Origin: Haloplasmatales bacterium 4B
GTDB taxonomy: Bacteria; Bacillota_I; Bacilli_A; Haloplasmatales; Haloplasmataceae
DNA length: 64,000 nt
Direction: 5' to 3'
Assembly (NCBI GenBank): GCA_003586005.1
Contig: NSKI01000006.1
Location: 1 to 64,000 of the forward strand
The translations under genes were made by a program, and so were the position numbers. Positions within the stretch are counted from its first letter, which is position 1; the number at the start of each line of letters is the position of its first letter. Below are positions 18,200 to 20,604 of this stretch, piece by piece. Below the pieces are notes generated by a model that had not been told where the DNA came from, ran no database searches, and worked only from the letters and a program-made list of their open reading frames with translations.

Positions 18200-18228
18200 T
18201 TGACAATAGAGGGAAGGCTACATATAAT
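18200..18228 (+). promoter_or_regulatory. Promoter of the TetR-family regulator gene
   Basis: TTGACA, a 17-base spacer and TATAAT, both perfect. The start point would fall near 18235, inside the palindromic operator at 18234-18246, so bound regulator would block initiation. Confidence 0.85.
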
Positions 18229-18233
18229 ATAAA

Positions 18234-18246
18234 TGAACATTGTTCA
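18234..18246 (+). promoter_or_regulatory. Palindromic operator 1 of the TetR regulator
   Basis: TGAACATTGTTCA, a perfect inverted repeat around one central base, overlapping the predicted transcription start. A near-identical site (TGAACATAGTTCA) precedes the next gene. This shared motif strongly suggests self-regulation and control of the downstream membrane-protein gene. Confidence 0.75.
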
Positions 18247-18259
18247 AACAAAAGAAAAC

Positions 18260-18823
18260 ATGGTGATTATATTGTCGAAAATAATTGAAAATCCAAAAGA
18301 ACTAATCTTAAATAAAGCTAAGGAAGTCATGCATAGTGAAGGTTATTCAAGTGTAAGTATTAGACGAATAGCCAAAGATTGTAATATTTCAATAGGAACT
18401 ATATACAACTATTTTCCAAGTAAAAAAGAACTTATTGTTGAAATGATGGCTAACTTTTGGAATGAATGTTTTTATGACATTGATATTATTGTAAAATCAA
18501 GTAATAACTTTTATTCTAAGTTAAGAGTCATTTTTAGTAACTTAAATCGATTTCTTCAAAAATTTAAAGAAGTTTGGCTAAAAACAAATATATACTCAAC
18601 ACCAGAATACATTAGGAGTGGTGTGCAAAGACAAAATGTTTTAATGGGACATTTAATTAATACAATTGAAGATTTATTAAAGACTAATGTTGAATTAAAG
18701 ACAGAATCACTAGATTATAATGTAATTGCTAATTTCATTATAATGAATTTCATAACAATTATTCAAATGCCTAGTTTTAAGTATGATCAATTTGAAAATA
18801 TATTAAAACAGTTATTAGAATAG
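18260..18823 (+). CDS. TetR-family transcription regulator
   Basis: A regulator of about 187 residues. Its N-terminal helix-turn-helix is typical (YSSVSIRRIAKDCNISIG, then TIYNYFPSKKELI), followed by an all-helical ligand/dimer domain. The upstream in-frame ATG at 18233 lies before the predicted transcription start, so translation must begin later: ATG at 18260, or the TTG at 18272, which has a better GGTGAT site. The gene has a perfect promoter with an operator over the start point, and the same operator lies before the seven-helix membrane protein at 18923. It probably represses both genes until a ligand binds. The ligand is unknown. It is transcribed against the leading-strand direction of this arm. 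Confidence 0.9.
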   Translation: MVIILSKIIENPKELILNKAKEVMHSEGYSSVSIRRIAKDCNISIGTIYNYFPSKKELIVEMMANFWNECFYDIDIIVKSSNNFYSKLRVIFSNLNRFLQKFKEVWLKTNIYSTPEYIRSGVQRQNVLMGHLINTIEDLLKTNVELKTESLDYNVIANFIIMNFITIIQMPSFKYDQFENILKQLLE

Positions 18824-18840
18824 TTATAACCATAAAAGTA

Positions 18841-18865
18841 AATCATATCTTAAAAGATATGATTT
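18841..18865 (+). terminator. Hairpin after the TetR gene
   Basis: AATCATATCT and AGATATGATT arms around TAAA, followed by TAAAAA rather than a T run. It may terminate weakly or act as a processing or spacing element before operator 2. Confidence 0.4.
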
Positions 18866-18880
18866 AAAAATGAGTACATA

Positions 18881-18893
18881 TGAACATAGTTCA
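18881..18893 (+). promoter_or_regulatory. Palindromic operator 2 before the seven-helix protein gene
   Basis: TGAACATAGTTCA, identical to operator 1 except for one central base, lies 30 bases before the start of the membrane-protein gene. I could not find a convincing -35/-10 pair around it, so its geometry relative to the promoter is not resolved. Confidence 0.7.
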
Positions 18894-18922
18894 TTTAACT
18901 AAAAAATTAAGGAGTGTTTTAT

Positions 18923-19588
18923 ATGCAACAAATTTTTGAACCTATTTTCCACGTATTTTATTTATTATCAGTTTTTGTAATGTCAATCTTTATGATCTTA
19001 GCTGGAAGAAAAGAAAATAATAAGTTTCTTCTAATGTTCGGTATTATGGGATTCACATTAGGATTTGGTGACAGCTTTCATTTGATTCCTAGAATCTATG
19101 CCCTAGTAACAAACGGTGTTGAAGGATTAGAAATTCATGCAACAGCTTTAGGTTTTGGGAAATTAGTAACTTCTATAACAATGACACTATTCTACTTAAT
19201 TCTATTTAGAATATGGGAAATTCGATTTAATGTTAAAGAGAGTAAATCATTAAAATTATTTATTGGTGTATTAGTATTCGCACGAGTTGTGCTTTCATTA
19301 TTGCCACAAAATGACTGGTTTAACTACGATGCTCCTGTTAGTTGGGGAATCTATCGTAACATACCTTTTGTAATCTTAGGAGCATTAATTGTATACTTAA
19401 TCTTAAAAGAAGCATATAAAAACAATGACCTAACATTCAAAAAAATTGGATATTCCGTTATCATCTCATTTGCGTGTTACCTTCCAGTAGTTTTATTTGC
19501 GACAACTGTAAGAACAGTAGGATTCCTAATGATCCCAAAAACACTAGCCTATTTATGGATTATATATATAGGATTTAAAGAAATATAA
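18923..19588 (+). CDS. Seven-transmembrane protein of unknown function
   Basis: A 221-residue polytopic membrane protein that I do not recognise. Hydrophobic helices lie at about 8-27, 34-50, 73-95, 109-127, 145-163, 175-193 and 199-217. Polar residues sit inside the second helix region (GFGDSFHLIPR: Asp50, His53, Arg57). A further histidine lies at His72 (LEIHATALGFGK), with RNIPF near 144. Buried Asp/His/Arg residues suggest a transporter or membrane hydrolase rather than a passive scaffold. The ATG at 18923 follows an AAGGAG site; an in-frame GTG at 18914 is inside that site and is rejected. It is paired with the TetR regulator through a shared operator and closed by a strong terminator. 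Confidence 0.8.
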   Translation: MQQIFEPIFHVFYLLSVFVMSIFMILAGRKENNKFLLMFGIMGFTLGFGDSFHLIPRIYALVTNGVEGLEIHATALGFGKLVTSITMTLFYLILFRIWEIRFNVKESKSLKLFIGVLVFARVVLSLLPQNDWFNYDAPVSWGIYRNIPFVILGALIVYLILKEAYKNNDLTFKKIGYSVIISFACYLPVVLFATTVRTVGFLMIPKTLAYLWIIYIGFKEI

Positions 19589-19689
19589 AAAACAAAATAA
19601 TCATAAAATTATTTTTAAAATTGGTATATACTAGAAATGATAGAAAAATTAATTATTAGTCTTATTTCAATTAGTAACTGTGGTCTTGT

Positions 19690-19724
19690 AGATACGAACT
19701 ATTATGTTTGTATCTGCTTTTTTT
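19690..19724 (+). terminator. Terminator after the seven-helix membrane protein
   Basis: AGATACGAAC and GTTTGTATCT arms around TATTAT, followed by GC and seven T residues; 100 bases past the stop. Confidence 0.8.
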
Positions 19725-19796
19725 AAAACCTTTTAATATAAGTAAACTACTTGCGCAATATAAATTAACAAGGTTGCTTTTTATTGTGGGCGAACC

Positions 19797-20165
19797 TTAA
19801 TTTTTCAAAATCATACTCACTTTTAATGAAGTTAATGTTTTACCTGAACCTGTTGTATGCCAGATATAACCGTTTTTCATAGCACTACTTTCAACACTCT
19901 TGCTAATTCCTTCTACTGCTTAATATCGATATCTTAAAATTATTAATGCTTTGGCAGTCTCATTCAAGACAATGATTTTGGTAATTATTTATTATCAGTA
20001 TATCTATCTACTTCACAAAGCAATAACTTTTCAACATTATACTGCACTAGTTGATATTTAAAATTATTAACAAGTTCATTTTTATTCTTAATTGAGATGC
20101 GTTGAAACTTATTTTCTATCGAATCGCGAATTAAATACTCTTCTAATACTGCTTATCCCTGTACT
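19797..20165 (-). pseudogene. Remnant of a type I restriction enzyme R subunit (HsdR)
   Basis: Translating the minus strand gives LEEYLIRDSIENKFQ, KNKNELVNNFKYQLVQYN and, after stops and a deletion, [17 protein letters not shown]. The last is the HsdR motor-domain Walker A motif with its typical flanks, preceded by LRYRY-stop-AVEGI. Several in-frame stops and missing sequence show it is dead. No hsdM or hsdS remains nearby. The system was probably lost by decay in place. Confidence 0.8.
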
Positions 20166-20302
20166 AATATTTCAATATCACCCCGTCTTAACTATCTCTA
20201 TTTTAACAAAAAAGATAAAAATAGAAGAATTAAAAATAATCCTTCTATACACTTAACTATAAATCACATTATGAAGTCCATAAATAAGTACAACCTCTTT
20301 TA

Positions 20303-20495
20303 TCATTTCTTAGTTTTAATAATTTTATCATTAAAAAAATTAGCCCAATCAAGTTTTTCTGCATATTTTTCCAAGAATTTTACTTAGAGTATGGGGTTAC
20401 ACGATATGCTTTCCCAAACTATTTTATCATGATGCTTTTCAATAAATTCTTCAATAAACTCCTTTGATTCCCATAATTTTCAACAATATCTTTTC
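20303..20495 (-). pseudogene. Remnant of a short-repeat protein gene
   Basis: The minus strand reads LWESKEFIEEFIEKHHDKI, then VWESISCNPIL, a stop, then VKFLEKYAEKLDWANFFND and a final stop. The alternation of NP-x-LLEK and DKIxW-like units resembles tandem-repeat proteins with ankyrin-like short repeats. It has one internal stop and a likely frameshift upstream (DEKILLKI in another frame). Identity is uncertain. Confidence 0.45.
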
Positions 20496-20604
20496 ATCTA
20501 TATGAGTTTAGTGTTTACCATCCTTCTCAATTCATAATTGTTTTTAACTCTTAAAAACAAACATCTAGTATTAACTATTTACTAAAAATTAGGCTTTATT
20601 TATA

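Follow-up and report, generated by a model that had tools for sequence, protein, structure and literature searches.

A TetR-family regulator and a seven-helix membrane protein paired by a palindromic motif that lies over a promoter and, in a second copy, behind a putative terminator hairpin

In the 64,000-nucleotide stretch of the genome of Haloplasmatales bacterium 4B analysed here (contig NSKI01000006.1, positions 1 to 64,000; the window), the gene of a TetR-family regulator is followed by that of a seven-helix membrane protein (MP), and each is preceded by one of the window's only two exact copies of the palindrome TGAACN3GTTCA. Comparison with related loci indicated that the two copies have unlike surroundings: operator 1 (op1) lies across the point where a strong promoter is predicted to start transcription, whereas operator 2 (op2) has no promoter signal and in most relatives stands a short, nearly constant distance behind a terminator hairpin. 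This coupling of op2 to a terminator is the new point of the present analysis. We propose an acquired, autorepressed unit in which MP would be transcribed by read-through from the tetR promoter, with TetR serving as a roadblock at the op2 terminator, and assign this account as a whole a probability of about 0.5. The wider proposal, of a widespread bacterial switch in which a ligand-responsive TetR acts both at the promoter and as a roadblock behind an intrinsic terminator gating MP, is tentative, with the odds somewhat against it. The module, its motif and its regulon are computationally solid; the gene pair, motif, promoter, hairpin spacing, cis and trans co-occurrence and relatedness were all read from sequence comparison.

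The features of the module are compiled in Table 1. Both the perfect promoter with a palindrome over the tetR start point and the one-base-variant palindrome before the MP gene, as described in the first-pass annotation, were recovered. The longest open reading frame of tetR begins at ATG 18233, but TTG 18272 is more likely to be the start codon, because ATG 18233 coincides with the predicted transcription start and the N-termini of the relatives align from 18272. The RNA fold of the hairpin stretch has a predicted energy of -13.6 kcal/mol; its U-tract is eroded (three T, versus five in the aligned Clostridium ganghwense locus L088), and a consensus terminator scan of the window did not call it. 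An Rfam search gave no match. The module lies on the plus strand, its neighbours lie on the minus strand, and remnants of decayed genes were seen on its flanks, in agreement with the initial description. Downstream, it adjoins a decayed minus-strand gene (19589-20604), presumably the relic of a type I restriction HsdR subunit. A phage origin of the module was rejected, a phage match being absent.

Table 1. Features of the TetR/MP module, in window coordinates.
Feature	Position	Strand	Remarks
Sigma-70 promoter of tetR, TTGACA-17-TATAAT	18200..18228	+	match 12/12; -35 TTGACA 18200-18205, 17-bp spacer, -10 TATAAT 18223-18228
Operator 1 (op1), TGAACATTGTTCA	18234..18246	+	spans predicted transcription start; kept in TetR-bearing loci
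GGTGAT, likely RBS of tetR	18262..18267	+	inferred by reading the sequence
TetR-family regulator, 183 aa	18272..18823	+	likely TTG start at 18272; longest ORF from ATG 18233
Hairpin TAAATCATATCT-TAAA-AGATATGATTTA	18839..18866	+	window counterpart of the relatives' pre-op2 terminator hairpin; aligned with L088
Operator 2 (op2), TGAACATAGTTCA	18881..18893	+	precedes the MP gene; without promoter signal
AGGAG, RBS of the MP gene	18910..18914	+	
Seven-helix membrane protein (MP), 221 aa	18923..19588	+	without Pfam family; predicted N-out/C-in

The regulator matches TetR_N (PF00440) with an E-value of 2.2e-14 (53.4 bits; cut-off 24). Its AF2 model (pLDDT 84) is all-helical and matches solved TetR structures in Foldseek, the best being 3vuq (E 1.5e-5); FadR (3whb) was also matched, and the fold is near those of FadR, KstR and TTHA0167. 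Identities of the window TetR are 57, 54, 52 and 47% to the TetRs of the four loci with the nearest MPs and 14-35% to the others. The same ten fixed motif bases accompany TetRs which are only 14-25% identical to that of the window. TetR presumably binds TGAACN3GTTCA and is released from it by a ligand.

Judged by the window alone, the number of motif copies is statistically unremarkable (four sites with one mismatch allowed, versus 2.16 expected), and the significance of the motif derives from the comparative data, not from window counts. The whole 2.26-Mb genome contains one further exact site besides op1 and op2; this site, TGAACCTGGTTCA (G000:C11:39500-39512, L185), lies in a 2-kb stretch that contains no open reading frame of at least 60 aa, and is probably there by chance. 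Among 104 MP loci with at least 900 bp of upstream sequence, TetR and the exact motif were both present in 47 and both absent in 50; one of the seven discordant loci, L098, does have a TetR gene, further upstream. For the 100 MP loci placed in the tree, which were collected by homology to MP and thus are not a random sample, the counts were 47 with both, 47 with neither, and three plus three discordant (agreement 94; Fisher 7.6e-21), and all three TetR loci lacking the exact motif carry a one-mismatch copy. Phylogenetically independent, well-supported pairs number six and nearly all agree or are neutral, too few for p<0.05. The first-pass annotation had staked its matched operators on the palindrome recurring before orthologous pairs in related genomes, and the comparison found it conserved there.

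The association of motif and regulator extends to loci where the two genes have parted. In L119, L123 and L167 the motif stands before MP without an adjacent TetR gene. These genomes were predicted to encode a TetR elsewhere. Each of them has a single strong TetR match (E 1e-56 to 1e-69, against about 1e-10 for the second best) next to which the motif recurs, and the motif sites number only two to four per genome. A role of the motif as an RNA hairpin was considered and rejected: its arms are invariant among the exact-match sites, so that covariation is not assessable, and recognition of the sequence by a protein fits better. Eight relatives (e.g. L088, L090 and L110) carry an extra half-site TGAAC exactly at -10 from op2, i.e. 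one helical turn away, which is absent at the other positions of the 30 bp upstream of their op2. The window has TGAGT in place of this half-site, and one changed base in op2.

The promoters at op1 scored a mean of 11.02 of 12 in 45 relatives (11.0-11.1), versus 7.68 for shuffled sequences. At op2 the score was 7.44 versus 7.50 for shuffled sequences (-20..+45 covered); no promoter was seen between op2 and MP (7.81 versus 7.83), and no conserved one was found at -130..-40. A 10/12 match inside the 3' end of tetR (18792-18821) was discarded, as it is not conserved in relatives. The original supposition that op2 is a second promoter operator thus does not hold; directly upstream of it lies a hairpin instead. 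The only features in the position frequencies upstream of op2 were the stem, a run of T spanning -18 to -15 and a border rich in A. A rule combining hairpin and T-tract recognized a terminator in 26 of the 36 op2 loci, which form 12 clusters at 70% identity and hence are not 36 independent events, as compared to 5.8% of shuffled sequences, 1 of 45 op1 sites and none of the 16 TetR loci without op2 (Fisher 1e-6). The remaining ten op2 loci are without hairpin by the rule used, but several show one by eye. Between the end of the hairpin and op2 there are 13-21 bp (mean 16.5 with an sd of 2.1, against an sd of 11.2 in shuffled sequences), and this spacing holds while the stem sequences vary among loci. 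The distance from op2 to MP is 13-47 bp in most loci; in L162 and L165 it is about 100 bp, and the spacing between hairpin and op2 is still 14.

L167 has lost the adjacent tetR, yet MP is still preceded by op1 on a 12/12 promoter, followed by a short leader, the hairpin and a promoterless op2; op1 and op2 are only 138 bp apart. The lone MP operators of L119 and L123 lie on 12/12 and 11/12 promoters, respectively. From these layouts, together with the promoter scores, MP is apparently transcribed from the promoter further upstream, and op2 goes with the hairpin.

According to the mechanism we propose, TetR bound to op1, where its own strong promoter starts transcription, would repress the whole unit, until a ligand, probably amphiphilic or lipid-like, frees it from the operator. 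MP, which lacks a conserved promoter of its own, would be transcribed by read-through from the tetR promoter. TetR on op2 would form a roadblock that pins RNA polymerase in the U-tract of the terminator, so that leaky transcripts terminate, and its removal by the ligand would allow the polymerase to pass into MP. Intrinsic terminators release the RNA about 8 nt past the hairpin (figure quoted in PMC12366685), a point which lies about 9 bp before op2, nearer than the polymerase front; a terminating polymerase and op2-bound TetR would therefore touch. We infer that TetR raises termination; it might also meet the polymerase before the hairpin is completed. In the window the gate may be weaker or the second gate decaying, considering the three-T U-tract, the TGAGT half-site and the changed base of op2.

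Terminators between a tetR gene and the following gene are commonplace, which counts against a special gate. A possible, though not a probable, explanation is that op2 controls a promoter of MP itself, which could be weak, atypical or dependent on another sigma factor, and which overlaps the terminator. This would be the classic layout of a tetR gene and its target, it agrees with the proximity of op2 to MP in most loci, and it could draw on the lone operators of L119 and L123, which do sit on strong promoters; the MP promoter could also be weak, unconserved or non-sigma-70. However, matches around op2 equal those of shuffled sequences over both -20..+45 and -130..-40, when op1 is near consensus, and the stem, the T-run and the A-rich features are all that is found upstream. 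It appears unlikely that op2 is an auxiliary operator, with TetR on op1 and op2 looping the intervening 640 bp or so, or raising the local concentration of repressor, and with a terminator that merely ends tetR. The lac, gal and deo operators provide precedents for looping, and the op1-op2 distances are indeed concentrated at 611-656 bp, but helical phasing of the two sites was not found (Rayleigh p about 0.26). Looping would also leave unexplained that the hairpin is restricted to loci with op2 (26/36 versus 0/16) and keeps a fixed spacing, and that both hairpin and op2 are retained in L167, where tetR is missing and op1 is 138 bp off.

The roadblock reading can be compared to several known systems. 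Like autorepressed pairs of the TetR/QacR/FadR type, the module has a TetR_N regulator, a palindrome over the promoter start and an adjacent membrane-protein gene. It differs from them in that its second operator lies behind a terminator hairpin and off a promoter, in that its target belongs to no named family, and in that some genomes encode regulator and target apart while retaining the motif beside each. Termination by RNA polymerase I involves an RNA hairpin and a roadblock of DNA-bound Reb1/Nsi1 (PMC12366685); the module resembles this arrangement in its hairpin, T-rich tract and putative protein site a short fixed distance downstream, but it is bacterial, and with a ligand-responsive repressor as the proposed roadblock, termination would become conditional. 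Bacterial RNA polymerase is roadblocked by LacI (PMC4132739) and by C.Kpn2I (PMC6237814). As in these cases, the regulator site of the module is downstream of the promoter, with a proposed block of elongation; there, however, termination occurs via Mfd or stalling without a dedicated hairpin, whereas in the module a terminator sits at the block. In the literature searched, neither the motif nor a bacterial case of intrinsic termination that depends on a repressor was found. If the coupling of op2 and terminator is true, bacteria join a repressor roadblock and an intrinsic terminator into one conditional element, a bacterial counterpart of hairpin-plus-Reb1 termination and possibly a compact genetic switch.

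The AF2 model of MP (pLDDT 94) has seven helices. Lysine and arginine residues cluster in loops 1-2, 3-4 and 5-6 as well as at the C-terminus, predicting an N-out/C-in topology by the positive-inside rule. Of the polar residues highlighted at the outset, Asp50, His53 and Arg57 are retained by all 26 relatives, whereas conservation does not extend to His72; E6, N130, W132, R145, N146, K206 and Y210 are among the other invariant residues. The invariant polar residues, placed by helix ends rather than by coordinates, map to the outer half of the helix bundle or close to it. That MP stands outside named families, as first stated, was confirmed inasmuch as no Pfam family claims the window protein; among the 26 relatives, the one Pfam match is a weak one to YhhN (E 0.005) in a single protein. 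A Foldseek search with the model returned generic seven-helix matches, none of them at E<=0.001 (best in the PDB, E 0.009, to GPCRs), and a PDB sequence search with the family profile gave no match. Microbial rhodopsins have seven helices, an outward N-terminus and a retinal Lys in helix 7. In MP, seven helices, an N-out orientation predicted from the positive-inside charges and an invariant Lys206 in helix 7 were observed; the fold matches are weak and generic, and the family profile has no sequence match to a microbial rhodopsin in the PDB.

We favour the reading that MP may detoxify or sense a membrane-borne lipophile. MP could also be akin to the MASE3 sensory domain of histidine kinases but stand alone, as a membrane ligand-binding module and not an enzyme; this is quite unlikely, although the similarity is suggestive. 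As in MASE3 (PF17159, NF047874), MP has a multi-helix membrane region of about 220 aa with a D..H pattern, the aligned motifs being in register. The NCBIfam MASE3 kinase model matched weakly over the whole membrane region in 18 of the 26 relatives (best E 1.2e-5; a full-length match at E 4.6e-5), the window protein being aligned 4-215 to 14-220, and several MP relatives adjoin two-component systems. However, these scores are far below the curated cut-off, the Pfam MASE3 model is unmatched, and the profile comparison is not significant (hhalign probability 3%, E 0.015, no better than MASE3 versus YhhN). MP differs from the MASE3 sensors in having neither a kinase nor a PAS part.

In alkaline ceramidase/CREST hydrolases, several conserved His residues and an Asp form a zinc site. 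The earlier speculation on alkaline-ceramidase-like chemistry is not supported, and it is highly improbable that MP is a known seven-helix membrane enzyme, be it of this type or a lysoplasmalogenase (YhhN): seven helices, the invariant Asp50, His53 and Arg57 and the single weak YhhN match among the relatives would suit such an enzyme, but His53 is the sole invariant His among the 26 relatives, the profile search and the top 50 Foldseek PDB matches contained no ceramidase or CREST protein, and hhalign to YhhN (PF07947) gave a probability of 0.3%, on which membership in that family was rejected.

The regulon of the relatives is larger than the pair. A DUF2871 (PF11070) gene follows MP directly in 16 loci, usually with overlapping stop and start codons (L013, L014, L103, L112, L129, L145, L154, L158 and others), and its product is likely a functional partner of MP; it was not found in the genome to which the window belongs. 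DUF2871 has been linked to cytochrome-type domains (PMC12804078). In six loci (L012, L125, L163, L164, L171 and L172) a membrane protein of 146-154 aa is encoded with op2 before it, either between the TetR and MP genes or in the operon of the trans TetR; for its representative from L163, searches of Pfam and NCBIfam gave no match at the thresholds applied. In Faecalimonas, both DUF2871 and the 146-aa membrane protein follow the trans TetR. The TetR/MP pair of the first-pass annotation is thus upheld, but not its description as self-contained, since the regulon of relatives adds DUF2871 and the 146-aa protein and TetR may be encoded elsewhere. The exact operator TGAACN3GTTCA can be used to find members of the regulon, i.e. 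TetR, MP, DUF2871 and the 146-aa membrane protein. This regulon occurs in many Clostridia from the gut and the environment; further copies lie in Spirochaetes, on a Rhodococcus plasmid and on a Chloroflexi plasmid.

Loci without TetR have other regulators beside MP: a divergent OmpR-type response regulator with a sensor kinase, which takes the place of TetR in another MP subgroup (L002, L092, L093, L099, L143 and L155), and OhrR/HxlR-type regulators, glutathione peroxidase, flavodoxin and radical SAM proteins in L109, L116, L121, L139 and L160. The best PDB match of the OhrR neighbour is OhrR of B. subtilis (1z91, E 5e-41). The OhrR/HxlR neighbourhood suggests a setting of peroxide or electrophile stress, and because of these gene neighbours MP could, at low confidence, handle an oxidised or electrophilic lipophile in the membrane.

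Of 395 genomes sampled from the class, 36 encode MP relatives. A scan of genome contigs with a single sequence found none, an alignment query being required; the alignment-based scan yielded at least 557, of which 80, mostly from Clostridia and some from Spirochaetes, were retained. In the MP tree, the window protein groups with full support with those of Clostridium ganghwense (72% identity), Tepidibacter, a Spirochaetales MAG and a Firmicutes MAG, whereas other branches hold the MPs of the family to which the window's genome belongs. Since TetR (57%) is nearest to the same Clostridium ganghwense and Tepidibacter loci, the two genes appear to have moved together. The module was thus likely gained by horizontal transfer, as the first-pass annotation had surmised from its strand and its decayed neighbours, and would constitute a mobile unit across many gut and soil or environmental anaerobes. 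Plasmid copies of MP occur in Rhodococcus and Leptolinea; on the Rhodococcus gordoniae plasmid (L168, 4995-5765), the MP relative has DUF2871, a response regulator and kinases nearby.
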